From the IMG/VR virus record IMGVR_UViG_3300021963_000289, positions 1 to 38,951 of that record: a stretch of DNA of 38,951 nucleotides; one strand, given 5' to 3'. The translations under genes and the position numbers were made by a program. Source of the DNA: a virus. Each line of letters starts with the position of its first letter. The first letter of the stretch is position 1. Below the pieces are notes generated by a model that did not search any database, was not told where the DNA came from, and worked only from the letters and a program-made list of their open reading frames with translations. Shown here piece by piece: positions 1,125-33,316 of this stretch.

Positions 1125-1622
1125 ATGAGATTTAATACTTTAGAAAAAAAGCAAAGATCAATAGATAACACAAAATACGTGTTTACTATGCCAACTGTTA
1201 TATTTACAAATAATGTAGATATAATGGGGGAACATATTGTTACTGAAGACCAGGTTGGTAGAATAGATTTAATCTCTTTAAAATATTATAGAGACGCTGA
1301 TTATTGTGACTACATATTAAAATGGAATGGAATATCGAATCCTTTTATTATTGCAGAGGGAGATGTTCTAGAAATTCCAATAAATACTTCAGTTCTTGCA
1401 ACTATTAAACCAGTAAGACTAGTAGGGCCGGCAAATCAAATCTCAATTAGAGACCAATTCGTTGACACTAAGAGACTTCCAGTTAAAGATGCTAAGAGAA
1501 TTGAATATCTACAAAGAAAGGCTGCTCAAAAAGCAAACGGATCAAAACAGATTTTACCTCCTAATATTTTAAAAGAAGGAGATTCTAATATTCAAATCGG
1601 AAACGGATTTATTACTATTTAA
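1125..1622 (+). CDS. 53: Baseplate wedge protein gp53-like, LysM-type domain
   Basis: 165 aa. Residues 40-88 read as a LysM-like module (GRIDLISLKYYRDADY, then LKWNGISNPF and GDVLEIP). This is the pattern of T4 gp53, the wedge protein that ties adjacent baseplate wedges together; T4 gp53 is slightly longer (196 aa). The remainder is basic and polar, with a long charged C-terminal extension (residues 105-150) that may contact neighbouring wedge subunits. A 27-bp A-rich leader precedes the ATG with no Shine-Dalgarno. The stop codon shares its last A with the start of the next gene (TAATG), implying translational coupling with the hub protein. Family assignment rests on the LysM signature plus location among baseplate genes; a generic LysM baseplate protein is the alternative. 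Confidence 0.78.
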   Translation: MRFNTLEKKQRSIDNTKYVFTMPTVIFTNNVDIMGEHIVTEDQVGRIDLISLKYYRDADYCDYILKWNGISNPFIIAEGDVLEIPINTSVLATIKPVRLVGPANQISIRDQFVDTKRLPVKDAKRIEYLQRKAAQKANGSKQILPPNILKEGDSNIQIGNGFITI

Positions 1623-3817
1623 TGGCAGCAATTGAAAATCATATTCTTACTATAACCGAACCTACTATTAAATTAGATCAGGTTAAATTTGCATCGCTTG
1701 GAGAAGGCGAGGGTAATGAAAAGGCAAACACGAGTAAAGGTTACATTTTAATGGTATCGATTAATGGATATACTTTTAGTGATTGGGAAATTCTTTCAAT
1801 GGAGCTAGACTGCACAGGTACCGTTCCAACTATAGATTTATCAATCATCGATACTGAAGGTGTTTTTGGAGTTGATTCATTCCCTAGAGATGGTGATGTT
1901 ATTAACTTTAGAATGGGAACTTTAGAAAAGGACCAATATAAAGATATAAGAATTGATTTTGATATTTCAAATGCAGATGCTCCACCTCAAAGAGGAGAGG
2001 GCCGCGGAAACAAGTATCATTTTAGCGGTAGGATAAAGGTTCCAGGATTATATTCTGAGGATTGCAAATCATACGGTGTTGGTACTTCTTTAGACCATAT
2101 TGAATCTATTGCAAATGATTTAAAACTTGGAGTTGCTACTAACGTTGACACTGCTGATGATTCGATGAATCTGGTTATACCATACAATTCTATGTTTGAT
2201 ACATTAGAAGATTTGGTTAGACACTCCTATATTGACGAGGATAGCTTCCAGACCTATTGTATTGATCCTTATTACTATGTGAATTATGTTAACTTAAATA
2301 AGTTAATGGATTCAGAAGAAAGTATAGAGAAAATGATTGCCGCTTTTGAAAAAGAATTGGCAGATACTCCACAAATTCCAGCGGAAGGAGTAAATAAGGC
2401 GCAAAGAGCCCTTATTTTAACAAATCATAAGAGAGATCAGGGATCAAATTTATTTATAGTAAAACAATCTCTTAAAAATAAAGCGGGAACTGCAGCCAAA
2501 AAGAATGGTTACAAAAGGGTTCTTCAATATTTTGAAAATGATTCTGATGAAGGATTAGTTTCTCATGATATCGAACCTCTAGCGAGCAAAAACATGAAAG
2601 ATATCGAAGAACCTATGAAAGGTCGTCGAGATGAAGATCGATATAAAAACGAAATCAAGTATAAATACGTTGGTAGAAAATGTGGAGATCCTGAAACTTC
2701 AAATACACATTTGAATTATGAGTATTCTGCAATAAGTAATGCTCAAAACATTGCAGAAGTTACAAAAATGTCTTTAGACATTGAATTAGCTACTTTTAAT
2801 CCAGCACTGCATAGATTTCATAAAATACCTGTTCTTATATACACAGGAGAGAGACAAAGATTAGACGCTGAAAATCAAGTAAAAGAAAAGAAGGAAAAGG
2901 ATGGATTTGATAGTAAGCCAACTGATAAAGAAAACGGTGGATTAAATCCAGGTGAAATGGTTGTGGATGAATTCTTGAGTGGTTATTATGTTATTGGAGG
3001 TTTTAAATATCTTTATAAAGCGGGAGCTACTTCAGTTAAACAAGAAGTTAATTTGTTGAGAAGAGAATGGCCAAGTAGAGTTAATAATATTAACCCTGAA
3101 ACAGTTGCTCCAGCAACAACACCACCTCCAGCGCCAGCGCCTCCTGTTGCACCAGCACCAGAACCTCCGGCACCAGCTCCAGCACCAGAACCGCCTAAAG
3201 AACCTGTGTTTACATTAGACATATCAGACTTTAATGGTAACGGAAATAATCTTTTAGGTTCATGGTTCGAATTTGACGATACTATTTTATGGAAGGCTGA
3301 TGATATTACTCTAGTAACTGAAACTCCTAAAATTAAAGCGGTATTTAGTGGACCATCCGATTATGAGGTTGAGGGTACTGTTTCAATGGAAACAAAATCA
3401 AATAAGGCTGAAGTAAAATATTCATTCGAAATAGTTGAGTGGAATACTGAATTTAAAATACCTAAAGATACCTTTAAAGACAAGGAGGGTAGTTATACTG
3501 TAGATATAATTTTAACATATAAAGACCAAACAGTTAAAGAAACAAAGAAATTTGAATGGAAACCGTGGAAGCCTGATCAATCGTATGGATACGATGTAAC
3601 TAATATGAGTAAACTACAGTATGCTAAAGAAACAAAATCAAGTACAGAGCGTGGTAAATTTATTGGAACATATACATTAGCAGGAGAAGCGACTAAGGCA
3701 AATGGAGGTAAGGCACCGATGAGCGGTAAAATTGAAGGTGAAAACTTAAATGATGTTTCAAAACAAACAGAAGCAGCATGGAACGCTGAAATTGAAAAAG
3801 CAAGAACAAGTAAATAA
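1622..3817 (+). CDS. Baseplate hub protein, gp27/late-control-D-like, with Pro/Ala linker and C-terminal Ig-like region
   Basis: 731 aa. The N-terminal part (about 1-490) has the organisation expected of hub proteins of the gp27/GpD/Mu gp44 group. It opens with beta strands (YILMVSINGYTFSDWEIL), followed by MELDCTGTVPTIDLSIID, a segment GTSLDHIESIANDLKLGV, and later GYYVIGGFKYLY. Residues about 495-528 are a Pro/Ala linker (PAPAPEPP-type repeats). The C-terminal 200 residues look like one or two beta-sandwich modules (KAVFSGPSDYEVEGTVSM; SYTVDIILTYKDQTV) and end in a charged tail. The role would be the trimeric adaptor between spike and tube. It is larger than T4 gp27 (391 aa) because of the linker and C-terminal modules, which may carry an accessory or peptidoglycan-contacting function. 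It starts by TAATG overlap with the gp53-like gene. Confidence 0.68.
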   Translation: MAAIENHILTITEPTIKLDQVKFASLGEGEGNEKANTSKGYILMVSINGYTFSDWEILSMELDCTGTVPTIDLSIIDTEGVFGVDSFPRDGDVINFRMGTLEKDQYKDIRIDFDISNADAPPQRGEGRGNKYHFSGRIKVPGLYSEDCKSYGVGTSLDHIESIANDLKLGVATNVDTADDSMNLVIPYNSMFDTLEDLVRHSYIDEDSFQTYCIDPYYYVNYVNLNKLMDSEESIEKMIAAFEKELADTPQIPAEGVNKAQRALILTNHKRDQGSNLFIVKQSLKNKAGTAAKKNGYKRVLQYFENDSDEGLVSHDIEPLASKNMKDIEEPMKGRRDEDRYKNEIKYKYVGRKCGDPETSNTHLNYEYSAISNAQNIAEVTKMSLDIELATFNPALHRFHKIPVLIYTGERQRLDAENQVKEKKEKDGFDSKPTDKENGGLNPGEMVVDEFLSGYYVIGGFKYLYKAGATSVKQEVNLLRREWPSRVNNINPETVAPATTPPPAPAPPVAPAPEPPAPAPAPEPPKEPVFTLDISDFNGNGNNLLGSWFEFDDTILWKADDITLVTETPKIKAVFSGPSDYEVEGTVSMETKSNKAEVKYSFEIVEWNTEFKIPKDTFKDKEGSYTVDIILTYKDQTVKETKKFEWKPWKPDQSYGYDVTNMSKLQYAKETKSSTERGKFIGTYTLAGEATKANGGKAPMSGKIEGENLNDVSKQTEAAWNAEIEKARTSK

Positions 3818-3830
3818 AGATAAATAATAT

Positions 3831-5027
3831 ATGTCAGATTTTAAAACACCAAACGACTTTAGAAAAGGTTCATATAATAAGTACCCATACCAGGATCCTA
3901 CTTACCTTTCGTTTGCACTAATGTTTGACTGGTTCGATCCTGAAAATTCACCACTATTGTCTGAACCTGCTGAAAAATTCTTAGCCGATTTAGCAGAGAA
4001 AGATTCTTTTTATAAAGAAAGGCTTGAAGACCTTCAAGCGTTCAAAGATGCTCTTTATACAATTAACATGGAGTTGCCATGGTACTGGCAATCTCTTAAA
4101 GGATTAGAAAGATTACAGCAATATGATCCATTAAGAAATTATTGGGGTGGAGATGACGCTAAACTTGAAATTGAAACTTTAGAATCATTAAACCTTCCAA
4201 TTGCAGGTTTAATGCACTTATATAGAAGAGCAATATTTGATGAACGCAAATGGGGCTACATTCTACCTGTGAATTTGAGAAAATTCAGAATGTGGATATA
4301 TGTTACTGAAGTTAGAACAATTCAAGTAAATGCTGATACGAAGGTAGGCGGAGTTAATAAAAATACTGCTCTTAAAGATTTTCCTTCAAATATTAAGCCA
4401 ACTGTCGATGTAACTAATAAGAATAAAGATATTATGGGTACTGGCGGTAGACCATACTTTATGATTGGATTGGATTATTGCGAATTTGATATGATGACAG
4501 GCTCTAATATTTTTGCAGATCTTTCTAAAAGCCCGGAAAATGTAGCATCGAATTCAATCACTATAACATATGCAAGTTCTAAAAAAGTAGAGGCAAGAGT
4601 ACTTAATGGTATTGTTGATCCTTTAAAGTATTCAACAAATCAATTATCTCCAGCACCTGATTCTGAGTTTTTTGAACCTAGTTCAAAATCACCAATGGAA
4701 TTTGCCAAAGATAAACTTAATGGTAAAATTGATGAAGTTTCTGCAAAAGCAAAAGATTCTGCTAAAAAATTAGCAGAAGCAAAGAAACAAGAATTGATTC
4801 AAGCCGCTAGAGATAAAACAGTTAATAGAATACCGACATTTGAAAACGTATATTCTAATTTTATTAGAAGAGTAGATCAAGCGACAAATGTTCAACAAGT
4901 TGCTAAAGATTTAGGAAATGTAATACCTTCAAATATTGCTAATGTTGCAGGAGGAGGTACTATTAAACAAGCGCTTGATAAAGGAGCACAAAACGCAGTT
5001 AAAAACCTAGGAAACGCTTACGATTAA
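3831..5027 (+). CDS. Baseplate/tail-tube-proximal structural protein, unassigned
   Basis: 398 aa, between the hub and the gp5-like spike gene. The N-terminal half is Trp/Tyr-rich (LMFDWFDPENSP, MELPWYWQSLKGLERLQQYDP), followed by a compact beta region (KFRMWIYVTEVRTIQV, RPYFMIGLDYCEFDM, SNSITITYASSKKVEARVL). That beta region resembles the tube-like domain of tail-tube initiator proteins. Residues about 285-330 are Lys/Ala-rich and likely helical (KDKLNGKIDEVSAKAKDSAKK). The C-terminus is Gly/Ala/Asn-rich. Placement suggests a gp48/gp54-type tube-nucleating protein or second hub component, but I cannot name it. Leader: GATAAATAATAT directly before the ATG. The stop overlaps the next start (TAATG), so it is probably translated with the spike gene. 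Confidence 0.6.
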   Translation: MSDFKTPNDFRKGSYNKYPYQDPTYLSFALMFDWFDPENSPLLSEPAEKFLADLAEKDSFYKERLEDLQAFKDALYTINMELPWYWQSLKGLERLQQYDPLRNYWGGDDAKLEIETLESLNLPIAGLMHLYRRAIFDERKWGYILPVNLRKFRMWIYVTEVRTIQVNADTKVGGVNKNTALKDFPSNIKPTVDVTNKNKDIMGTGGRPYFMIGLDYCEFDMMTGSNIFADLSKSPENVASNSITITYASSKKVEARVLNGIVDPLKYSTNQLSPAPDSEFFEPSSKSPMEFAKDKLNGKIDEVSAKAKDSAKKLAEAKKQELIQAARDKTVNRIPTFENVYSNFIRRVDQATNVQQVAKDLGNVIPSNIANVAGGGTIKQALDKGAQNAVKNLGNAYD

Positions 5028-5746
5028 TGGCAACAGATAAAGAATTAGACAAGGATAATATTAGGGAAACCCACTGGATTGGTGAGGTTGTAGATAATGC
5101 TGATCCTAAGTTTCTTGGTAGATGCCGTGTTAAAGTTTTTGGTAAGTTTGATAAACTACCAAATGATGCTATTCCATGGGCAACCCCAATGAATAGAGAT
5201 TTTGTAGGAGCTCATCATACTCCAAATGTTGGAACTATTGTCGCCGTTAGATTTGACAATGGTAACATATATCATCCTGAATATTGGTTTCAAATTAATC
5301 AAAGTAAAGCGTTAAAGGCTGATGTATTAGAAAAATCAGGAAAAGCGCAAGATGTTGTATCATTAATATATGATGAAGTAAGAAACATTAGAATCTATCA
5401 CTCGCCTGAGGATGGATTAGTAATTACACGAGGCACCGGAGCAAAAGAGAGACCCTTGATTCAAATTGATGAGAAGGGTTATATTAAAATATCGAGTGCT
5501 GAAAAAATATTCTTAGATTCTGGTAATGTATTCTTAAGTAATACTGGCGAAGGTAGCGAAGATGAAGCAGAACCTACGGTTCGCGGAGTATCTCTTGAAA
5601 AATGGTTAAATAAATTGCTTGATGATTATAAGAACCATTTTCATCCGACAGGAGTTGGTCCTTCAGGACCTCCGGCAGCAGCAACGCCATCAACTGTTAG
5701 TAGTTTAAAATCGTCACATAAAGACTATCAACAAAAGGGTAAATAG
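5027..5746 (+). CDS. 5: Baseplate central spike protein, gp5-like N-terminal OB fold without lysozyme
   Basis: 239 aa. Residues 14-90 match the OB-fold of T4 gp5/GpV-type spike proteins: WIGEVVDNADPKFLGRCRVKVFG, then LPNDAIPWATPMN, then PNVGTIVAVRFDNG and HPEYWFQIN. Residues 115-170 are a second small beta region (IRIYHSPEDGLVITRG, ISSAEKIFLDSGNVFL) that looks like the start of a spike stem. The C-terminus is Gly/Pro/Ala-rich after a conserved NHFHPTG motif. T4 gp5 is 575 aa with an internal lysozyme and a beta-helix; both are absent, so this is a minimal spike and peptidoglycan cleavage must come from another protein. It overlaps the previous gene by one base. A GATATATAA promoter-like motif follows immediately. 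Confidence 0.82.
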   Translation: MATDKELDKDNIRETHWIGEVVDNADPKFLGRCRVKVFGKFDKLPNDAIPWATPMNRDFVGAHHTPNVGTIVAVRFDNGNIYHPEYWFQINQSKALKADVLEKSGKAQDVVSLIYDEVRNIRIYHSPEDGLVITRGTGAKERPLIQIDEKGYIKISSAEKIFLDSGNVFLSNTGEGSEDEAEPTVRGVSLEKWLNKLLDDYKNHFHPTGVGPSGPPAAATPSTVSSLKSSHKDYQQKGK

Positions 5747-7702: not shown

Positions 7703-7708
7703 AAATTT

Positions 7709-7718
7709 AATATATAAC
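7709..7718 (+). promoter_or_regulatory. Candidate late promoter element AATATATAAC before the S1 gene
   Basis: AATATATAAC, one base from the GATATATAA(C/T) consensus, 42 bases upstream of the S1-like gene's ATG. It is followed by a long A-rich leader (CCTTAAAAATTAAAACA) with no Shine-Dalgarno. With the downstream terminator it frames the S1-like gene as its own transcription unit. Confidence 0.4.
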
Positions 7719-7750
7719 TTATAAATTATTAACCCTTAAAAATTAAAACA

Positions 7751-8962
7751 ATGTCACAAGACGTTAAAACAAAAAAACAAATTGCAACTGAAGGAAACCC
7801 TAATTTCGATTGGGACGCACACTTAGCAGATTGCCCAACAAATTTCAGAAGACCAAATCTTCACATTAAAGCACCTGCTGGAGTTAAAGTTTATTCAAGA
7901 GCCCCTTATGCTCAAGAATTACTTGATTTAATGGAGAAATTTGAATCAACAGCTCCACAAGTATTTAATGTTATTATTGGAGAAACTCATACAGGTACTG
8001 TATATTCAGTAGACCAAGAATGGGCTTCAATCGACATTGGACACAGAGAAATGGTATATGTTGATATGAACAGAGAATCAAAAGTCTCAAAAGCAAGATT
8101 AATTCCAGGAGAGAAGTTATCAGTTGAAATCGTCGCAGATAGAAGCTCTAACTCTAGAGGATTTATTGTAGGTTCAGTAGAAGCTGGAATCAAGGCAGCA
8201 GCACTAAGAGAAATGTTACAATCAGCAGAAACACAAAACACTGCATATATTGGAACAGTAACTGGAATGATTCCAAACGGAGGTTATTTCGTAAACGTAC
8301 AAGGAATTGACTGTTTCATGCCAGGTTCTCTTGCAGGTATTAACAAACTTGCAGATTTCGAATCAGTATTAAATACTCAAATGTATGTAGTTCCTATGAG
8401 CTACTCTCCAGAAAGAGGTACTGTAATTGTTTCACATAGAAAGTATTTACAAGCCTTAATTCCTGGTAAAGTTGAAGAACTTAAAAATACAATGGGAGAA
8501 ACTAAAACTGGAAATGTTACAGGTTCTGCTAAATACGGAGTATTTGTTGAGTTTGATGGTTGTTTAACTGGAATGATCCATGCAAATGACTTAAATGCTG
8601 AATTTGCTAAGAAACATAAAGCAAGAGAAATTAATCCAGGAGACGAAATTACATTCATTGTAAAAGAAATCATCACTGATGAAAAAATTACATTGACTCA
8701 ATTAGAGTATGTTGAAACAGTAGATCCATGGAAGGAGATTGCAACAAAATACAAATCTTTTCCAGTTGAAGTTAAAGGTACAATAAAATCTGTTAAAGAT
8801 TATGGAGTATTTGTAGACATTGGAGATGGAATAGTAGGATTGTTACACGTATCTGAATTACCAGAAGGCGTTGAAATTACATCAATTGCAAAGAATGATA
8901 ATATAACTGTTCAAGTTACAAGAATTGAAGTTGAGACAAGAAAAGTTTTCTTAAAACTGTAA
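7751..8962 (+). CDS. Ribosomal protein S1 homologue with four S1 RNA-binding domains
   Basis: 403 aa. Four S1 (OB) domains are visible: 73-146, 163-230, 250-318 and 336-403. They line up with domains 1-4 of bacterial bS1. Domain 2 carries the bS1 hallmark GIDCFMPGSLAG (185-196) and the end VSHRKYLQAL. Domain 3 has KYGVFVEFDGCLTGMIH. The link to domain 4 contains DPWKEIATKY, typical of bS1, followed by VKDYGVFVDIGDGIVGLLHVSEL. Domains 5 and 6 of the 557-aa E. coli protein are missing. An N-terminal amphipathic segment (51-66, APYAQELLDLMEKFES) resembles the part of bS1 that docks on the 30S subunit. Likely role: cytoplasmic, mRNA or ribosome binding to favour phage translation. It sits among baseplate genes but has a promoter-like motif upstream and a strong terminator downstream. 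A generic S1-domain RNA-binding protein is the alternative. Confidence 0.9.
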   Translation: MSQDVKTKKQIATEGNPNFDWDAHLADCPTNFRRPNLHIKAPAGVKVYSRAPYAQELLDLMEKFESTAPQVFNVIIGETHTGTVYSVDQEWASIDIGHREMVYVDMNRESKVSKARLIPGEKLSVEIVADRSSNSRGFIVGSVEAGIKAAALREMLQSAETQNTAYIGTVTGMIPNGGYFVNVQGIDCFMPGSLAGINKLADFESVLNTQMYVVPMSYSPERGTVIVSHRKYLQALIPGKVEELKNTMGETKTGNVTGSAKYGVFVEFDGCLTGMIHANDLNAEFAKKHKAREINPGDEITFIVKEIITDEKITLTQLEYVETVDPWKEIATKYKSFPVEVKGTIKSVKDYGVFVDIGDGIVGLLHVSELPEGVEITSIAKNDNITVQVTRIEVETRKVFLKL

Positions 8963-9918: not shown

Positions 9919-11214
9919 ATGAACAACTTAAACGATTCAAACGTTTTACAAAACGCGCTAGTTGGCGTTGAATTTGAATTCTATTCAAATTTTAGTGCCG
10001 AAGAAACTGCTAAAAAATTAGCAGAACTTTTAGGCAAAAAGATTCATGTTGAAACAAAAGCACATAGTGATTTTGAAGTAACTCAAGATGAATTTAAAAT
10101 AGAACCTGATATGTCGGGTGGAGCAAAGCTTCTAGAACTTGTTACTGGAGCCCTTCCATATTTTGCAGCAAGATTAATGATTATTAATGTGTGCAAATGG
10201 ATTGAAGAGAATGGATATACAAATGACAGATCTTCAATTCACTTAAATCTTTCATTCGATAAATCTAAAATCGATAATAAGTATAGAATATCGAAGATGA
10301 ATGTTCTTAAATTTATCCTTGATTTTAATGAAGATCAAGTATTCAAATTCTTTCCAAAAAGAGAAAATTCAGCATACGCAAAATCAATCAAGTTTGTACT
10401 TCCAAAAGAAGACACATATTTCTTTGATGGAAACTATATTAATCAACAAAACTTTATTTACCCTGATACCAAATATTACGGAATCAATTTTGACAAAAGA
10501 CATAAAAACTATTTAGAATTTAGATATGTTGGAGGCGCTGATTGGGAAAAGAAAACAACAACAATACTACATCTAGTTGACCAATTTTTATTGCAACTAT
10601 GGAAATCAACTGAAAATACCGAATTCACTTCATTAAATTCAATCGAGCTTAAGAAAATAATATCGTCAAATCAGAGAATTATTGATGCTCGTAAAGATTG
10701 GAAAACTATCGAAAAGAATTGGAAAGGCGTTAAGTTTACGGTTGATTTAAACGATAATTCAAAGGTAGTAGATCTATATTGGCCGAGCGTTAAGGAAAGA
10801 GTAATGCGATTATTTACGCATGGTGATCTTACGAAGGGACATATTAATTATGATTCAGATTCTGGTAGAATTCAAATAGCTAATGGTAGATTAGAATATT
10901 GTGTAGATCTTAGAGGATATGAATTCGTTGACTGTTTTTTAAGAGGAGAATTTACAGAGTGTGATATGTATGGATGTGATGTTAACGGATCAGACATTCA
11001 CTATTGTAATTTTTATTCTTCAACTCAAATTAATAGTTCAAAAATAGATGGTTCTTATGTTCATGGATCTTGTGTTGCTAACGATTGTTATGTATATGGT
11101 AAAGGAACATTTAAAGGATCTATGAAAGGTGGTATTTTTAGAGAGGGTACGTACGATAAAAAACTTGCTAAATTTGATAATGACGTAGAAATCGTTAAAT
11201 CAGAAGCAATATAA
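9919..11214 (+). CDS. Amidoligase-like enzyme (COOH-NH2 ligase fold) fused to a Cys-rich beta-helical C-terminal domain
   Basis: 431 aa. The N-terminal 1-235 shows the ordered motifs of the amidoligase family related to glutamine-synthetase/GCS-type ligases. These are LVGVEFEFY (15-22), an acidic strand EPDMSGGAKLLELVTG (62-77), SSIHLNLSFD (105-114) and NYLEFRYVGG (197-206). Conserved Glu/His/Arg in these positions would bind ATP-Mg and the carboxylate substrate. Residues 324-411 change to a quasi-pentapeptide, right-handed-helix-like region (CVDLRGYEFVDCFLRGEFTE, GCDVNGSDIHYCNF) with seven Cys (328, 339, 348, 353, 363, 385, 390). The substrate is unknown; it could add a peptide or amino group to a phage or host molecule. 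It is preceded by a GATATATAAC motif and lies inside the baseplate cluster, so action on a virion protein is possible (inference). The family call rests on motifs only, with no search. Confidence 0.68.
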   Translation: MNNLNDSNVLQNALVGVEFEFYSNFSAEETAKKLAELLGKKIHVETKAHSDFEVTQDEFKIEPDMSGGAKLLELVTGALPYFAARLMIINVCKWIEENGYTNDRSSIHLNLSFDKSKIDNKYRISKMNVLKFILDFNEDQVFKFFPKRENSAYAKSIKFVLPKEDTYFFDGNYINQQNFIYPDTKYYGINFDKRHKNYLEFRYVGGADWEKKTTTILHLVDQFLLQLWKSTENTEFTSLNSIELKKIISSNQRIIDARKDWKTIEKNWKGVKFTVDLNDNSKVVDLYWPSVKERVMRLFTHGDLTKGHINYDSDSGRIQIANGRLEYCVDLRGYEFVDCFLRGEFTECDMYGCDVNGSDIHYCNFYSSTQINSSKIDGSYVHGSCVANDCYVYGKGTFKGSMKGGIFREGTYDKKLAKFDNDVEIVKSEAI

Positions 11215-12442: not shown

Positions 12443-14263
12443 ATGGCAGAACTTAAATTTTTATCAAAAGCTAGAATCAAAGCTAGCGAAATGTTGGATG
12501 ATACCAAAACATATATCAGTAGATTATATGGTAGAAGTGGTGATTTATTTTCAACATCATCTCCATTTGCTCAAATTCTTGAAGTATTAACGGAGCTTAC
12601 GAACTTGGTTTTCTTCTACATTGAAGATGCTACAGTTGAACAAAATATTTTAACAGCTCAAAACCCAGAATCTATATATGGACTTGCAAGATTAGCAGGC
12701 CACGATCCATTTAGAGGAACTTCAGCTGTTGGGGAAATTAGAGTGAGATTAAACACAAGTGCTTTTAACGAAATTGCAGGAGACGCCATCAATATTCCAG
12801 CAAACACGGTTATTAAAGCGAGCAAAAATAATCTTTCTTATATCTTAAAAACGAACAACGATCAATTTAGAATTGAAAAAAGTAACCCAGAATATATTTA
12901 TATTCCAGTTGTACAAGGTAAGGTTGAAACGCAAGGTGTTACTGGAACTGGCGCAAAGTTACAGTCTTTTAATTTAATTATCAAAAAGAATACAGATCAT
13001 CATTCAGTTAGAGTAAGCGTTAATAGCGAACTATGGACAAAATATGATTCATTATATGATATGAAAGCCGATTCTAAAGGATATATGGTGAAAAGTGGTA
13101 TTACCGGAGGATTAGATATTTATTTTGGGAATGGATCTTTTGGTATGATTCCACCAGAAGGATCTAGTATTAGTGTTGAATACATTATCACTGACGGTTC
13201 TAAAGGTAATTTAACAGGTTCTAAAGACCTTAATTTTAAATATGAAACTGAAGGATTTGATTCTTTAGGAAATACTTACAACTTAAATAAATTATTGGAA
13301 TCTTCTTTCACAGTTGCTCCAGTAATGGGATCTGATCCGGAGCCTTTAGAGTTAACTAAGTTAATTGCTCCGATGCAAAGTCACTCTTTTGTATTAGCAA
13401 CTCCAGAAAATTACGAAGCATTTCTTTCAAGATATGGTATGTTTTCATACTTAGACGCTTATAATACAACTGAAGATGGGTTTATCGACGATGATAACGT
13501 GATATATTTATTTATGTTACCGGACACTGCTAGAAAACTAACGAAAAATAATGACTATTTTAATATACATCAGGAGGAATTCTTTTTCTCTGAACAAGAA
13601 AAGAATGGAATATTAAAAGTTCTTGAAGAATCAGGACAACAAATGGTAACAACTGAAGTTAAGATTGTAGAACCAAAAGCTCAATATTTTAGAATGGATG
13701 TTAAAGTTCGTTATTTTGAAGGATTTGACAAAGCAAATCTTTATACCGCAATTCGTTCAAAAATTTCAGACTATTTAATTAATATCACGAGAAGAGACAG
13801 ATTACCGAAATCAGATATTATTGCGCTACTAGAAGGTGTTGAAGGAATTGATTCAGTAAATATTAGATTTGTTTCTGAGAAAGAGGAAACAGCTAGACGT
13901 AATGGATATTACACTAGTGAAACTGTTACAGTTACTCCAAGCACTCCAATACTAGAGGATATTGGAAATGGAAAACAAAAATACGTATTCTTTAAAAGAA
14001 ATGTCGTGACATCAAATGTTAATTTTGAACCAGGCGCTGCATTACCTGAAAATGTAATTAATCTTGATTCATTTGGAGATATTATTCTTGAAAAAGAAGA
14101 AGTTGCATTATTCAGAGGAGGTTGGCAAGATCGAGATGGAGCAACGGTATTAGACGATGCGAAAATGGGAGAAATGGCTGCCCTTTCAATTTACTTTGAT
14201 GAACCTGCGGTACCAAATACTATTTTTAGTAAGATGCAAGCACAAAATAGAAAAGCACTATAA
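12443..14263 (+). CDS. 6: Baseplate wedge protein gp6-like (baseplate J family)
   Basis: 606 aa, similar to the 660 aa of T4 gp6. The N-terminal region SSPFAQILEVLTELTNLVFF and IYGLARLAGHDPFRGTSAVG (about 30-95) is the typical gp6/BppJ start. The middle is strand-rich (INIPANTVIKASKNNLSYI; LDIYFGNGSFGMIPPEGSSI), ending with GSKGNLTGSKDLNF. The C-terminal part has TEVKIVEPKAQYFRMDVKVR and YLINITRRDRLPKSDIIALL, the usual end module of baseplate J proteins. It forms the dimeric ring clamp of the wedge. Directly after gp25 as in other contractile tails; the stop overlaps the next start by one base (TAATG). Confidence 0.9.
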   Translation: MAELKFLSKARIKASEMLDDTKTYISRLYGRSGDLFSTSSPFAQILEVLTELTNLVFFYIEDATVEQNILTAQNPESIYGLARLAGHDPFRGTSAVGEIRVRLNTSAFNEIAGDAINIPANTVIKASKNNLSYILKTNNDQFRIEKSNPEYIYIPVVQGKVETQGVTGTGAKLQSFNLIIKKNTDHHSVRVSVNSELWTKYDSLYDMKADSKGYMVKSGITGGLDIYFGNGSFGMIPPEGSSISVEYIITDGSKGNLTGSKDLNFKYETEGFDSLGNTYNLNKLLESSFTVAPVMGSDPEPLELTKLIAPMQSHSFVLATPENYEAFLSRYGMFSYLDAYNTTEDGFIDDDNVIYLFMLPDTARKLTKNNDYFNIHQEEFFFSEQEKNGILKVLEESGQQMVTTEVKIVEPKAQYFRMDVKVRYFEGFDKANLYTAIRSKISDYLINITRRDRLPKSDIIALLEGVEGIDSVNIRFVSEKEETARRNGYYTSETVTVTPSTPILEDIGNGKQKYVFFKRNVVTSNVNFEPGAALPENVINLDSFGDIILEKEEVALFRGGWQDRDGATVLDDAKMGEMAALSIYFDEPAVPNTIFSKMQAQNRKAL

Positions 14264-28042: not shown

Positions 28043-30832
28043 ATGGCTATTAACATTAAGGAATTATTTAGAAGCGATCTGGATCCTAACGGTACACTAT
28101 GGTGGTCTGAAGACAAGATAGATAAAGTTAACTATAATTTTGGTCTACTGTCTAACGGTGGAATGCCAGGGCCTCAGGGTTCTATAGGACCTGATGGAGA
28201 TTTTGGTCCAATTGGAATGAGAGGACCTCAAGGTTATCAAGGGTTTCAAGGACCTCAGGGATTACAAGGAGAATACGCGATAAATGATTGGGTTTATTAT
28301 GCAGATACTATAAGTAGCACTGGATATTTATTTGTTAAGAAAAACATTAATTCTACTTTAGAGTATTCTCCAGTAGTAATGAGAATTGGTATTGATAAAA
28401 ACGATTCCAGATATACAGTTCCGAGTTCTTATTACGATTATGTTGTTTTATCAAACGTTAACCCTAATATATTAGATACTAAAAGTCCTAAAATAAATTT
28501 AAGACTGCAAAGTGATGGAAAGTTTTCAGACTATAAATTAACAAAAAAAATAACGATCGATGGTAGCATTGATGAATTACATATTGGTAAATTTGCATCT
28601 GGAGAATCTGGTTTTGAAATAATTTATCCTTCTGAAAATTTAAAATTGCGTTCAATAACACCACAAAATGGAAACACAACTGACACTCACGAAATAAGCG
28701 ATTCTTTAATAAAAATTAACTCGCGACCATCTCAAAACGGAGCTGTAACAGCTTCAGCAGCTCTTAGTAATATTTCAGGAAAACATACTAGATCAAACCA
28801 TACTTTTAATTATAGTAAAGGGGCTCAGATAGATTATGTTTTAGTATCGGATGACTCAACTGGTAAGTCAAATTGGAGAGATAAAAACTCACTATTTGGT
28901 AGTTATCCAATAGGTTCTATTATTTCAATTAGAGAATCTGATTTTAATTCAACTAACTTTCATTTAAATGAAACTCAATATCAGAATGGAAGCCCATTAC
29001 CAGTTCTTAAAAATTTATTTGGTAGAGGAAAGGTGAATACTGATTTTGCGGGATGGTACCTATGTAACGGAGAATCTTGGGAAATTTCACCAGGAGTTAA
29101 TAGCATTTTAACACCTAATTTGAATTCTTTTAATTATAACATTGGATCAAATGGAGGAGAACAAAATGCAATAACGAACGGAGGAAGCAATGATAAAATA
29201 ATCGTTGGAGGTTATGATTTAAACGTTAACGCTGCTTTTAACAGTGCTAATAATAGTTATAACGTTCAATTTACAAATACATGGAATGACAATAACAGCG
29301 GAGATGTTACTATCGATATGGGTACATCATCTCCGACAGATTCGTATGTAAGTAGAATGGTTCATATAGTTTACTTAGAAAATACAAGCCTTACATGGTC
29401 TAAGTCTAATGTCGCACCTCCAACTATAGTAACGACTCCTATTTCTTTAGGATATTCTTTATTAAATTCACCGTCACCTAATGGTATCTGTGATGTACAA
29501 ACTTCTAATACTTATTCATGGAATGGAACTTCAGGAAGCTGGTCAACGTTTAATGAATCAAATGGAGGAGTTTATTTGTATTCTCACAATACTACCAATT
29601 TTGCGCCAACTGGATATTATATAGATGTAGCAACTGGAATATGGAGATATTGGAATGCAACAACACAGACTTTTTCTAGTCCCACAACATGCGTTGTTAT
29701 TCCTTCATTTAATATATTTTTAGTTTCTTCAGATAGAGTTGACCAATATATCAACGGTCCTGTTAGCCAATTTACGATTCCATTACAGTTTAAAATAGAT
29801 AATTCTGATTTTAAATTTGCAACTACTCTTAAATACGGATTTAACAATGGCGTTGCAGCAGCAGGATGGTACCGAGACGTTGTTACTGGTAGAAGAAGAT
29901 ACTGGAATGGATCTTCATTCCAAGGAGTTGGATTCACCAATGATTATGTGTATTCAGTACAAGATACTGCCGGAAATCATACTGGATTTAATATGGTAAC
30001 TAGTGTTTCTACTGCATGTGGAGCATCGAATACAAGATACGAATCTTATGTTGCAACTGATAATGAGCTAGTATTTACTGATATTTCAAATATCATAGGA
30101 TTAATTTTATGGGTACCTCAAAACTGGATCGGTCTTCCGGGACAACCTACACCTGCTCTTGTTAATATTATAAGTCAAAATGCGCCATCACAAACAACAA
30201 CATGGAAGAGAGTGTATCATAATGGCGATTTTGAAAGTGTAACTGCTTCAATTAACCAAACAACAGGAATAGTTAACACTCCTACATTATGTACTGCAGG
30301 AACTTCAGGAACTGGAGGTACAGGAGGAACTGGTGGATCTGGGTGTTTAATAGAAGGAACAAATATATTAATGGCCGATGGAACTACTAATAAAATAGAA
30401 AATCTAAAGGTTGGAGATAGTTTATCTAGTAAATTAATTGAAGGAATGCCAATTAAAGAGGATCAAACTTTATTAGATTGGAGAAATTCCGGAGATATTA
30501 AATTACAAAAAGAATCAGTAGAATTAAAGAGTATAAAATTATTTGAAGTAGATACTGTTCTATCATTTAATAATAAAACAATAGTTTCATCAAAAGACCA
30601 TTTACATGTTATTAAGCAAAATGGAATTTGGAGAATTCTTCGAGGTGATGAAATTAAAATTGGAGATTATTTATTAGACCAAACCGGTAAAGAAATAGAA
30701 ATAGAAATTATAGATATTTTTATAGGAAACTTTAAAGTTTATAAATTAGATGTTGAAGAAAACGATTTATTTATTGCTAATGGAATATTAACACATAATT
30801 TAAAAAATGCGCTAGCGCCAGACGCTGTATAA
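28043..30832 (+). CDS. Collagen-like tail-collar fibre with C-terminal Hint (intein-like) domain
   Basis: 929 aa, starting 2 bases after the previous stop. Domains: an N-terminal attachment segment (1-39, KIDKVNYNFGLLSNGG); 12 uninterrupted Gly-X-Y triplets (40-75); a beta-rich shaft; and a tail-collar domain with AGWYLCNGESW (336-346) and TPNLNSFNYNIG. Then come two copies of a GYYxDxxTGxxRYWN motif (about 524 and 607) and a Gly/Thr/Ser linker (about 752-767). A complete Hint domain follows (768-919). It has Cys768 in CLIEGTNILMADGT, VGD (790-792), block-B SKDH with His853, IGDYLLD (873-879), and ends KVYKLDVEENDLFIANG plus LTHN (His918, Asn919). Only ten residues follow, beginning with Leu920. 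Role: receptor-binding fibre whose tip may be cleaved or ligated autocatalytically. Without a Cys/Ser/Thr at +1, full splicing is unlikely; cleavage fits better (inference). Confidence 0.85.
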   Translation: MAINIKELFRSDLDPNGTLWWSEDKIDKVNYNFGLLSNGGMPGPQGSIGPDGDFGPIGMRGPQGYQGFQGPQGLQGEYAINDWVYYADTISSTGYLFVKKNINSTLEYSPVVMRIGIDKNDSRYTVPSSYYDYVVLSNVNPNILDTKSPKINLRLQSDGKFSDYKLTKKITIDGSIDELHIGKFASGESGFEIIYPSENLKLRSITPQNGNTTDTHEISDSLIKINSRPSQNGAVTASAALSNISGKHTRSNHTFNYSKGAQIDYVLVSDDSTGKSNWRDKNSLFGSYPIGSIISIRESDFNSTNFHLNETQYQNGSPLPVLKNLFGRGKVNTDFAGWYLCNGESWEISPGVNSILTPNLNSFNYNIGSNGGEQNAITNGGSNDKIIVGGYDLNVNAAFNSANNSYNVQFTNTWNDNNSGDVTIDMGTSSPTDSYVSRMVHIVYLENTSLTWSKSNVAPPTIVTTPISLGYSLLNSPSPNGICDVQTSNTYSWNGTSGSWSTFNESNGGVYLYSHNTTNFAPTGYYIDVATGIWRYWNATTQTFSSPTTCVVIPSFNIFLVSSDRVDQYINGPVSQFTIPLQFKIDNSDFKFATTLKYGFNNGVAAAGWYRDVVTGRRRYWNGSSFQGVGFTNDYVYSVQDTAGNHTGFNMVTSVSTACGASNTRYESYVATDNELVFTDISNIIGLILWVPQNWIGLPGQPTPALVNIISQNAPSQTTTWKRVYHNGDFESVTASINQTTGIVNTPTLCTAGTSGTGGTGGTGGSGCLIEGTNILMADGTTNKIENLKVGDSLSSKLIEGMPIKEDQTLLDWRNSGDIKLQKESVELKSIKLFEVDTVLSFNNKTIVSSKDHLHVIKQNGIWRILRGDEIKIGDYLLDQTGKEIEIEIIDIFIGNFKVYKLDVEENDLFIANGILTHNLKNALAPDAV
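30344..30799 (+). other. Hint/BIL-type autoprocessing domain (within fibre gene)
   Basis: Encodes residues 768-919 of the fibre. Nucleophile Cys768 follows a Gly-rich linker, block-B histidine is His853 in SKDH, and the end is His918-Asn919. The domain is 152 aa, typical for a Hint fold without homing endonuclease. The +1 residue is Leu, like A-type bacterial intein-like domains rather than classical inteins. Confidence 0.85.
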
Positions 30833-30883: not shown

Positions 30884-33316
30884 ATGATAATAAATCTGAA
30901 ACAGTTAAACCTTGCCGATAGCGATAATATAAAACTTGACAAAATTAATTATAATTTTGATCAGTTAGTTGCTAATGGAGGAGGGCCTCAAGGACCTACT
31001 GGAAGTAAAGGAGATACTGGAGCTCAAGGTGTTACCGGTGCTCGAGGATTTCAGGGATTTCAAGGACCTATTGGTGTTCAAGGATTGCCGGGAATAAACA
31101 CATCAGCATATTGGAAAAATATACAAGGTATTCCTGGAAGTTTATCAGCAGATACGATAGTACCTATTCACAATCCAACAACTACACCTCCGACGCCATC
31201 CATGGATTATCCTCCTGTTGTTTCTGTAGGATTTGTTAGCACTGATACTCAATATAATACAGCGCAGCCTCTTGGAGGAGGAACTGTTCCATACCAATGG
31301 ATAATTAATAGAAAAGATCACTTTGCTTCTAATTTAAGATTTACAAGTAGTGATGTTTTAAATAACTATGTAGATTTTAGAATAGAAAATGATGCACCAA
31401 ATTCTGTTAATAGATTTATAATGAAATTTGGTACTCCAACTGGTTCATCTTTCATATGGTATGCTCAAAATCATATATTTAAAAGCAACATTACTGGAAA
31501 TTCTTTATTAACTATTTCCGATTCTTCAATAGAATATAATGTAAATACTGAATTTAATCGACCAGTTACTGTAAAAGAGCAGTTGATTATTGGAAATTCC
31601 GGAGCTGCTACTGATAAAATTGCAGTTTCAGCAGATTCTTCTGGTAAAATAACATTTAAGAGTATTAAAGAACTTGGAGGAGTTGTTCCTTACGGCACAA
31701 TAATTTCAATACTTCCTTCTATTTTTTCAGATAATTCAAAATTTATTACCGGAGAATCTATAACTTTAGCGAGTCCAACTGATTTATTGAAGATTAGAGT
31801 GGGTTCTGGGCTTGGCGATTACGAAGGATGGTATGTTTGTAATGGTAAAACATGGAAGGGTACGATCGATCATATCGTGCCAGACTTAAATTCATTTTCA
31901 TATACGATTGGAGATAATACAAATAGTATAGATCCTAACAGTCAGGGTTCTGCTTCAGTAACTAATCCAGAAACTCACATTATGGGAGGTGCTGATTTAT
32001 CAATGACAGCAACTAATGTTGCACCTGGAGTTTATGGTGTTGGATCAACTAGAGCAACAACATCTGTTAGCATTGACACTACATCTGGAGGAAGTACTTA
32101 TAAAATTAAAAGATTACCTCAAATAATTTATTTAGGTGAAGGTGGATGCTATTGGCAAGATAGCGGAAGTGGACAAGCTCCCGCAACTTCTTTAAATTTC
32201 CAAATTACTGATGCAAATACTGGAGCAAATAAATTAAGTCCAAATCCTACGAGTTTAGGATCTGCGACATATACACAAGGAGGTTCATATATACATACAC
32301 AAACGTTAACAGCTCCTGCTGGATATTATTGGTCAGCATCTCCTGTTATTGGAAAACCGTCTTATATAGATGGAGTTACAGTAACGATGGGCGGAGGTAC
32401 ATATCCAACTACAATAACATTAGATATTAGTGTAGATACTCAACCTGCCGCTGGAAACACTGCTAATTTAACAATAGATACTTCTAGTTTAATAGTAGCG
32501 TATCCTAATAGTACTGTTAAATATGCTCATCCTTCATGGTACTCGTCGATTGATGCAGTAACTAATGGAACTGTTCATCAAGTATATGATTTAGGAACTG
32601 ATCCTAATTCTGCCGGTACATTAACGTATACTGGAAGTGTTACTGCTTTAACCGGAACTGTAAGGTATATTAAATATAGACTTAAGGCTGATGATTATTT
32701 CTATAAATTTATATCTCCTTCAACTTCTAACGTTACGATGGGTATTGTTTCTCCTACTAATACAAATATAACAGTACATTCTGTTACCGCTAATAGTGAT
32801 TTCTATGTTGATTTGATTATTAAAGATAATAACTTTGGTTCAACAAATCCGGGAGGATCAACAGACCAAATGTTATACATTAGTGCTAGTGCAACATCAT
32901 ATACAGACGCTGTTAATTCAACAGGAAGTGGAATGCCTTCAAATAGTTTAAATTATTCAACATCAGGATCTAGTAATTTAGCAATAAGTTTATTTGGTCT
33001 TGTAAGACTAAGACCCGGCGCTGGAACAGTTAAATTAAGATTTAGAGCAATTTCTTATAACTATATAAGCGGAGGAACCGCGCAATGTTCAAATAATGGA
33101 GTTACTTCTACTGTAAATTTCCCATATATAACTACAACAGGAAATGTTACAAATATTGCGAATCCATCTTCATGGACTGCTGTAGATAACACAACTCTAA
33201 CATTTAGTGGTAATCCAACAATTAACACAGGAGCTGGTGGTACTTTTGGAAGTGCAGCGTTGGATGTTCAATATTCTAGTGATGGCGAAGTAACATGGAG
33301 ACAATTAGGAGCATAA
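30884..33316 (+). CDS. Collagen-like tail-collar fibre, paralogue without Hint domain
   Basis: 810 aa. Paralogous to the preceding fibre in its N-terminal half: an attachment segment with DKINYNFDQLVANGG (19-33), 12 Gly-X-Y triplets (34-69), a beta-rich shaft, and a tail-collar domain with YEGWYVCNGKTW (313-324) and VPDLNSFSYTIG. The C-terminal 400 residues are unrelated to the first fibre. They are Thr/Ser/Gly-rich, low in charge, with repetitive beta strands (ANLTIDTSSLIVAYPNSTVK; GNVTNIANPSSWTAVDNTTL) and end in SSDGEVTWRQLGA. This pattern suits a trimeric receptor-binding tip that varies between phages. Two fibres with a shared base and different tips suggest alternative or co-mounted adhesins (inference). 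There is no catalytic motif. Confidence 0.82.
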   Translation: MIINLKQLNLADSDNIKLDKINYNFDQLVANGGGPQGPTGSKGDTGAQGVTGARGFQGFQGPIGVQGLPGINTSAYWKNIQGIPGSLSADTIVPIHNPTTTPPTPSMDYPPVVSVGFVSTDTQYNTAQPLGGGTVPYQWIINRKDHFASNLRFTSSDVLNNYVDFRIENDAPNSVNRFIMKFGTPTGSSFIWYAQNHIFKSNITGNSLLTISDSSIEYNVNTEFNRPVTVKEQLIIGNSGAATDKIAVSADSSGKITFKSIKELGGVVPYGTIISILPSIFSDNSKFITGESITLASPTDLLKIRVGSGLGDYEGWYVCNGKTWKGTIDHIVPDLNSFSYTIGDNTNSIDPNSQGSASVTNPETHIMGGADLSMTATNVAPGVYGVGSTRATTSVSIDTTSGGSTYKIKRLPQIIYLGEGGCYWQDSGSGQAPATSLNFQITDANTGANKLSPNPTSLGSATYTQGGSYIHTQTLTAPAGYYWSASPVIGKPSYIDGVTVTMGGGTYPTTITLDISVDTQPAAGNTANLTIDTSSLIVAYPNSTVKYAHPSWYSSIDAVTNGTVHQVYDLGTDPNSAGTLTYTGSVTALTGTVRYIKYRLKADDYFYKFISPSTSNVTMGIVSPTNTNITVHSVTANSDFYVDLIIKDNNFGSTNPGGSTDQMLYISASATSYTDAVNSTGSGMPSNSLNYSTSGSSNLAISLFGLVRLRPGAGTVKLRFRAISYNYISGGTAQCSNNGVTSTVNFPYITTTGNVTNIANPSSWTAVDNTTLTFSGNPTINTGAGGTFGSAALDVQYSSDGEVTWRQLGA

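Follow-up and report, generated by a model that had tools for sequence, protein, structure and literature searches.

A four-domain homologue of ribosomal protein bS1 in the tail module of phages that probably infect Bacteroidota

What might a phage do with a shortened ribosomal protein S1? The question is raised by the stretch of DNA analysed here (the window), an IMG/VR virus record of 38,951 bases that is probably a fragment and in which a tRNA search over the full record found none. On its plus strand, positions 7,751–8,962 form a reading frame that runs uninterrupted from ATG to stop and encodes a protein of 403 amino acids with four S1/OB domains; frame 1 of the reverse complement of the same interval is crowded with stops. 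Phage S1 proteins, and the idea that S1 aids huge phages poor in Shine-Dalgarno (SD) sites, are already published. Al-Shayeb et al. 2020 described possible rpS1 in huge phages, with as many as six S1 domains in a handful of genomes, found that huge-phage genomes seldom have SD sites, and proposed a role in initiation (PMC7162821); the statement in an earlier note on this DNA that S1 is known from large phages agrees with that paper. It was also pointed out that the S1 domain is not restricted to ribosomal proteins (Mizuno et al. 2019, PMC6375957). Here we ask what kind of S1 protein the window encodes, where it comes from and how it may act.

Domain make-up and conserved residues

The twelve top NCBIfam families for the phage protein are all 30S S1 entries, including one IspH-S1 fusion, and the best match (E 1.5e-39) spans residues 73–401. 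The closest solved structures are bS1 chains (E. coli 6h4n, E 4.4e-38), and phmmer places residues 77–401 in a single alignment with residues 21–344 of E. coli bS1, which comprise its domains D1 to D4. A generic non-ribosomal S1 protein was considered and rejected, since the best non-ribosomal family reaches E 4.4e-15 against 1.5e-39 for bS1; with bS1 families ranking first, the earlier reading of a bS1-type rather than a generic S1-domain protein stands. The NCBIfam equivalog score, 135.8 bits, lies far below the cut-off of 524, but the TIGR00717 cut-off is also missed by the bS1 of 25 of 80 Bacteroidota genomes, and this score therefore governs naming and does not define a bS1. By these comparisons the phage protein is a bS1 homologue, for which a ribosomal role is proposed.

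That the frame encodes four S1 domains, as first suggested from the sequence, was seen in an AlphaFold2 model and in a profile comparison, with two of the four (domains 3 and 4) above the Pfam S1 cut-off. The model, computed from 22 phage sequences (mean pLDDT 73.6, pTM 0.41), contains the strands of four OB-like units and a helix at residues 54–65; its predicted domain folds are usable, the relative placement of the domains is not. The top Foldseek match is the bS1 of the 30S mRNA delivery complex 9gut (E 9.8e-25, 24% identity), with a TM of only 0.36–0.44.

We compared the phage domains with the bS1 domains of 20 Bacteroidia and four Proteobacteria by profile-profile comparison with hhalign. 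Domain 1 (residues 77–145; 7,979–8,185, plus strand) matches D1 (P 91.2 against Bacteroidia and 94.6 against Proteobacteria), the next-best match being D6 at 28.7 and 40.0, respectively. Domain 2 (residues 161–231; 8,231–8,443, plus strand) matches D2 (96.7 and 96.4), followed by Bacteroidia D6 at 65.5. As judged by these profiles, the specialised D1 and D2 are present in the phage protein and in that order. The second half consists of two domains with the residues of the RNA-binding type, domain 3 (residues 246–318; 8,486–8,704, plus strand) and domain 4 (residues 338–403 and the stop; 8,762–8,962, plus strand). Taken singly, domain 3 scores highest with D5 of Bacteroidia and with D4 of Proteobacteria. 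As a unit, domains 3 and 4 score 140 on Bacteroidia D4-5, 107 on D3-4 and 97 on D5-6, and 129 on D3-4 and 126 on D4-5 of Proteobacteria. In control comparisons, Bacteroidia D3-4 clearly recovers proteobacterial D3-4 (376 versus 250), and Bacteroidia D4-5 is itself ambiguous (320 on D3-4, 303 on D4-5). Since the second half fits D3-D4 about as well as D4-D5, neither its exact counterparts nor the missing domains can be named. The proposed collinearity with bS1 domains 1–4 was thus borne out for D1 and D2 and not for a strict D3-D4 assignment; likewise, the protein does have two domains fewer than host bS1, but its second-half scores do not single out domains 5 and 6 as the ones lost.

Both short motifs that had been read from the translation, the D2 hallmark GIDCFMPGSL and the linker DPWKEIATKY (8,723–8,752, plus strand), are present, and W327 of the linker is invariant in 22 of 22 aligned sequences. 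Further residue counts were made over 45 distinct full-length phage S1 proteins, the window's included and one truncated protein (L063) excluded. The D2-core residues C188 and F189 never vary among these. Cysteine codons 28, 188 and 271 (7,832–7,834, 8,312–8,314 and 8,561–8,563), which lie in the N-terminal segment, domain 2 and domain 3, respectively, are likewise invariant in 45/45.

The contacts that hold E. coli bS1 on uS2 are made by F5 and F9 of the N-terminal helix and by K43, which inserts into the uS2 zinc pocket (PMC10123108). The counterpart of K43, R99 in the window, is R in 39 and K in six of the 45 phage S1s, and K in 80/80 Bacteroidia bS1s; at this key basic residue the ribosome-docking half is retained, as had been claimed. 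In OB2 of E. coli, F120, F130 and K117 surround the mRNA, and OB1 and OB2 alone have undetectable RNA-binding activity (PMC10123108). The two aromatics of this pocket are kept in the phage proteins (F120 as Y179 and F130 as F189, 45/45 each); the counterpart of K117 (window P175) is P in 40, E in four and Q in one, and F79 of E. coli aligns with window R136, a position that is mostly R or K across the phage S1s. Ahead of D1, a YAQ helix (codons 53–65; 7,907–7,945, plus strand) is a candidate counterpart of the uS2-binding helix. Its Y53, A54 and Q55 are invariant in 45/45, and E. coli F5 and F9 align with phage L57 and M61 in an uncertain register relative to the E. coli helix. The invariant Y53-A-Q55 suggests a different register of the uS2-binding helix. 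The S1 triad of an aromatic residue, Phe and His is found in domains 3 and 4 only and is absent from domains 1 and 2, and the claim that two RNA-binding domains are retained is consistent with this distribution. In domain 3 the triad is Y262 (43/45, F in two), F265 (45/45) and H277 (43/45, Y in two), and in domain 4 it is Y351, F354 and H366 (45/45 each).

We consider it fairly probable that the shortened phage bS1 docks on the 30S subunit of Bacteroidia and captures SD-less phage mRNA. The triads of domains 3 and 4 would also suit a factor acting away from the ribosome, which binds, protects, unfolds or channels phage mRNA and does not replace host bS1, or, in a variant, one that assists a phage RNase or polymerase in the way that host bS1 serves T4 RegB and Q-beta replicase. 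Extra-ribosomal roles of bS1 exist (PMC13157829), and Al-Shayeb et al. allowed for action "on or off the ribosome" (PMC7162821); however, such a factor has no obvious need for the strictly conserved K43 counterpart, the pre-D1 motif or YAQ, and we regard both versions as unlikely.

The F-x-W motif and the ancestry of the phage S1

Upstream of D1 the window protein carries an F-D-W-D motif (codons 19–22; 7,805–7,816, plus strand) that is common to the N-termini of Bacteroidia bS1. F19 and W21 are invariant in the 45 distinct full-length phage S1s, and F-x-W-x-x-[YFH] precedes D1 in 80 of 81 phage loci, the sole miss being a truncated frame. The motif F-x-W is found in 80/80 bS1s titled Flavobacteria, Bacteroidales or other Bacteroidota, all of them drawn as close kin of one Flavobacterium bS1 query. 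In an even draw of 79 Bacteroidota N-termini, 17 carry it 32–36 residues ahead of D1 and 62 are without it, three of these 62 having an incomplete or doubtful N-terminus (L232, L268, L270). We take the carriers of this draw to be of class Bacteroidia, and the unlabelled non-carriers are presumably from groups such as Chlorobia and Rhodothermia. The motif is present in Parabacteroides and in a faecal sequence resembling Bacteroides, and it was found in 0/11 S1s of other origin (other phyla, IspH-type, cyanophage). The strict motif is found in one of 859 70-residue windows within S1 bodies. The 21 carriers in the tree described below form one clade (100/100), in which unlabelled genomes were assigned by the motif itself. 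Among the bacteria sampled, F-x-W is, by these counts, confined to Bacteroidia-type bS1. We found no description of the motif in the literature searched, outside which most subscription journals lie. As an observation on bS1 in general, F-[DN]-W just before D1 marks the Bacteroidia type (N-termini of L083-L162, L240, L252, L254-L267, L269), and the remaining Bacteroidota and other phyla in the sample lack it.

Six megaphage or Lak records carry a related S1: LR756500-LR756502, LR756504, LR745206 and Lak-B5, all of which we take to be records, and S1 carriers, of Al-Shayeb et al. 2020. Whereas all full-length S1s of the window family have F-x-W, only one of these six does, namely Lak-B5 (FDWSPY, with a similar following segment), and the five megaphages, of 462–735 kb, are without it. 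The Lak-B5 record gives Prevotella as host. The Lak-B5 S1 (L208, 11,941–13,047) has a window-like N-terminus, an apparent stop after domain 3 and a charged tail, and a scan of viral contigs for Lak S1 gave one locus only.

We built a tree from domains 1–4 of 74 S1 proteins; it is unrooted, has long branches and excludes a three-domain fragment (L219). The window family (17 rows), the five megaphage S1s and Lak-B5 form a 23-row clade (100/100) that stands apart from every bacterial S1 in the tree, the cyanophage S1 being placed elsewhere. A second tree, also without seven long-branched rows (L209, L216, L208 of Lak-B5 and L271-L274), holds 22 phage rows including the megaphages, which again form one clade (100/100). 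By these trees, long branches notwithstanding, the window S1 shares ancestry with the megaphage and Lak S1s and belongs with the known huge-phage kind; its relatives, too, rarely have SD sites. Constraining the phage and Bacteroidia rows to group together lowers the log-likelihood by 12.8 (AU p 0.115), or by 2.0 with the long rows removed (AU p 0.265), and is rejected in neither case.

Capture from a Bacteroidetes host, the origin that the earlier note wanted examined by phylogeny against Bacteroidetes bS1, did not find support: the phage S1s are a separate clade outside the sampled bacterial bS1s, although the AU tests do not reject a grouping with Bacteroidia. No recent capture from any of the hosts sampled was seen, the phage rows being separate from bacterial bS1s in both trees, and that origin is set aside; an origin from an early Bacteroidia bS1 is possible. 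A search of genome contigs with two phage-specific patterns, VQG[IV]DCFM and CLTGMIHxN, found no relative, two patterns making this a weak search. Separately, some Bacteroidota have a second S1-like protein of ~495–521 amino acids (L271-L274), which forms its own clade apart from rpsA.

The phage S1 is like Bacteroidia bS1 (rpsA, for example of Flavobacterium) in its F-x-W motif, D1-D2 unit, K43 counterpart and RNA-binding OB domains. It differs from that protein in having four domains rather than six, in the D2 core (FMPGSLAGxNKL in the phage proteins, FLPGSQIDVKPI in Bacteroidia bS1) and in an extra conserved segment between the motif and D1, and it is ~29% identical to Parabacteroides bS1. 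The bS1 of the jumbo cyanophage PhiMa05/MaAM05 (L209) is phage-encoded, as here, but lies outside the phage clade and is without F-x-W; it reportedly groups with Vampirovibrionia host proteins (PMC13157829).

Gene neighbourhood, selection and the co-encoded bS21

A scan of viral contigs returned 106 relatives, of which 80 were kept, on contigs of up to 236 kb. In 13/13 relatives compared, the tail and baseplate genes around S1 are arranged alike, with one or two genes flanking it that vary. In the window these genes include a baseplate OB/hub protein (5,027–5,746, plus strand; Pfam Phage_base_V E 2.2e-6, PHROG baseplate, synteny), an amidoligase-like downstream neighbour (9,919–11,214, plus strand; Pfam PF12224 E 4.9e-7) and a baseplate wedge protein (12,443–14,263, plus strand; PHROG 219 E 1e-38, synteny). 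A contaminating host gene was rejected as an explanation, the same gene being found amid tail genes in all 13 relatives. Of the six megaphage and Lak records, only the 462 kb megaphage LR756500 has a close S1 neighbourhood in common with the window, with eight genes in order; the megaphage loci L204, L206 and L207 have other window tail-region genes within ~10 kb of S1, and the surroundings of S1 out to 12 kb yielded no other window gene in L205 (a 735 kb megaphage) or Lak-B5.

The constancy of this place was assessed by anchoring on the downstream neighbour at 9,919–11,214 and taking the best 80 of at least 548 relatives, ranked by how closely they resemble the window. Among these 80, S1 is found in 70/70 module loci that have over 2.5 kb of upstream sequence and in 5/10 of those with a shorter upstream stretch. 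The dN/dS of S1 is 0.067–0.202 over nine pairs with the window, meaning that substitutions are mostly silent, and the gene is, by this measure, under purifying selection. The fixed place, the presence in 70/70 loci and the silent substitutions together argue that S1 is a standing member of this phage lineage rather than a stray capture, and its position with structural genes suggests late use.

Three further features of the region were observed. The amidoligase-like protein, which matches PF12224 in its N-terminal part, is 42–89% identical in ten relatives and is among the better-conserved genes of the module. Within the tail module, a large protein (1,622–3,817) matches a TnsA-like nuclease close to its C-terminus, at a score below threshold (E 0.004). 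The N-terminal parts of two long proteins (28,043–30,832 and 30,884–33,316) match tail-fibre and collagen-like PHROGs.

A protein encoded among baseplate genes could itself be part of the virion or of its assembly, packaged or injected and acting within minutes of infection or while particles are built. Its unchanging position in the 13 relatives and in LR756500, its presence in 70/70 module loci (again for the best 80 of at least 548 relatives) and the retention of other tail-region genes near S1 in L204, L206 and L207 would fit such a role. The S1 genes of L205 and Lak-B5, however, stand apart from other window genes, and the conserved residues are explained by bS1 function and not by a structural role; we judge a virion protein highly improbable.

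If the phage S1 does dock on the 30S subunit, a second ribosomal protein encoded by many of its relatives is of interest. We searched for bS21 in 50 of 87 records (the 87 being the window, 80 viral loci and the six megaphage and Lak records; the 50 being 44 IMG/VR records including the window and all six megaphage and Lak records). It was found above the family cut-off in 29/50, including 4/6 of the megaphage and Lak records, and was not found in 21/50, including the window, Lak-B5 and LR756500. Five records of 145–236 kb whose S1s are ~74% identical to the window's (G003, G004, G005, G097, G098) also gave no bS21, and absence there is therefore not merely a matter of fragment size. In G090, whose S1 is 94% identical to the window's, bS21 lies ~16 kb upstream of S1, a position that would fall beyond the left end of the window.

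At position 54, bS21 of Bacteroidia has a Tyr, described as unique to that class, whose stacking on A1534 redirects the tail of the 16S rRNA (PMC9976891). This residue is present in 20/20 phage bS21s read (20 of the 29 matches, several of them identical) and in 11/12 bS21s from genomes with F-x-W bS1, and the phage bS21, where encoded, thus looks suited to the SD-blind state. The F-x-W signature, the bS21 and the kinship with Lak point to a host that is probably a member of the Bacteroidia. We found no pairing of S1 and bS21 in one phage lineage in the literature searched, which takes in few subscription journals. Chen et al. 2022 reported that the bS21 of Bacteroidetes phages is expressed with structural genes and predicted Bacteroidetes hosts (PMC9723584). 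That bS21 is, like the phage S1, a ribosomal protein of the initiation platform, but a different one, and the terms "ribosomal protein S1", "rpS1" and "bS1" appear nowhere in the main text of the paper (PMC9723584).

Phage leaders and a possible role in initiation

The leader of the S1 gene (7,703–7,750, plus strand) is A-rich, and its final 25 bases, up to the ATG, contain no SD-like tetramer. Such tetramers occur in 2/24 leaders of the window (8.3%, against 3.6% in shuffled sequence), too few to judge, and, with genes called by a simple ORF rule, in 6/244 leaders of 16 relatives (2.5%, against 4.0% shuffled). A proteobacterial control is weak, with 4/21 leaders (19.0%, against 11.6% shuffled), and leaves the test with modest power. 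The idea of a genome without SD sites is matched by the relatives, which have no excess. The expected A-rich leaders were recovered: in the same 244 leaders of relatives, which are not independent because many of the 16 loci are homologous, A makes up 72% at -13 and 64% at -3 and -7, and 41–52% at -22 to -17. In 201 control leaders from Bacteroidia, mostly rpsA neighbourhoods and thus unrepresentative of those genomes, A stands at 41% at -13 and 53% at -14.

In F. johnsoniae, A at -12/-13, -6 and -3 promotes initiation, and domain 4 of bS1 is thought to lie close to -12 to -15 (PMC6847099). On one SD-less mRNA, initiation rose ~2-fold when F. johnsoniae bS1 was added, but rpsU mRNA responded little (PMC9976891). 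It should be noted that an A-rich bias has also been discussed as the trace of leaderless promoters (PMC5397173). Looked at as a sign of the host, the Bacteroidetes -7 element occurs in the window 53 times against 43 expected, and 7/100 shuffles are equally high, so that it is at most weakly enriched; the two-part pattern is enriched (seven against 2.05 expected), with six of the seven sites inside genes. Moreover, 18/24 window genes overlap the upstream gene or begin within 30 bases of its end, and for such closely spaced genes translational coupling might suffice.

These leaders also bear on the possibility that the protein is a decoy, which would fill the bS1 site on the 30S subunit in a partly inactive form and so shut down host translation instead of promoting that of the phage. 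Docking residues retained in a protein with two domains fewer than host bS1 are what a decoy could look like. However, phage leaders, which are also without an SD excess, would suffer from it; the two RNA-binding domains, with their near-strict triads, have been retained under purifying selection, and the position amid structural genes suggests late use. We consider a decoy quite improbable.

In the docking reading that we prefer, the phage bS1 would bind the uS2 site of the host 30S subunit through its F-x-W tail, the helix before D1 and D1 itself. D2 and the two RNA-binding OB domains would then be positioned beside the mRNA exit channel, where A-rich, SD-less phage leaders could be captured in place of, or before, host bS1. 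In many relatives an accompanying phage bS21 of the anti-SD-sequestering type may hold the anti-SD closed, and two exchangeable proteins of the initiation platform would possibly be phage-made, probably late in infection, a timing that we infer from gene position. This reading draws on bS1 families and chains as the best matches, the identification of D1 and D2, R or K at the K43 counterpart in 45/45, the two OB2 pocket aromatics, the triads of domains 3 and 4, the F-x-W motif, Tyr54 of bS21, the SD-poor and A-rich leaders, the F. johnsoniae results on leader A and on added bS1 (PMC6847099, PMC9976891), and S1 in 70/70 loci. Counted against it are the changed counterparts of F5/F9, K117 and F79, the 21/50 records without bS21, the window's 2/24 SD-like leaders and the weak control, the five of six megaphage and Lak S1s without F-x-W, the little effect of F. 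johnsoniae bS1 on rpsU mRNA (PMC9976891), the close spacing of window genes, the missed NCBIfam equivalog cut-off, and the weak -7 element. More tentatively, we speculate that these phages rebuild the Bacteroidia initiation platform with their own bS1 and bS21, giving an SD-blind ribosome for late genes. Tyr54 of the phage bS21 would lock the anti-SD, the phage bS1 would serve as the mRNA-capture arm, and F-x-W would be a docking peptide for which host and phage S1 compete; this we hold to be possible but somewhat doubtful.

In Bacteroidota, where start sites are chosen independently of SD, bS1 is the suspected reader of A-rich leaders (PMC6847099). The four-domain phage S1 is a natural reduced version of that protein, and may help to tell what suffices in terms of domains, anchor and leader bases. 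Our analysis highlights the F-x-W motif of Bacteroidia bS1, and points to an S1 kept by selection, often together with a bS21 that would lock the anti-SD, in phages that probably infect Bacteroidota.
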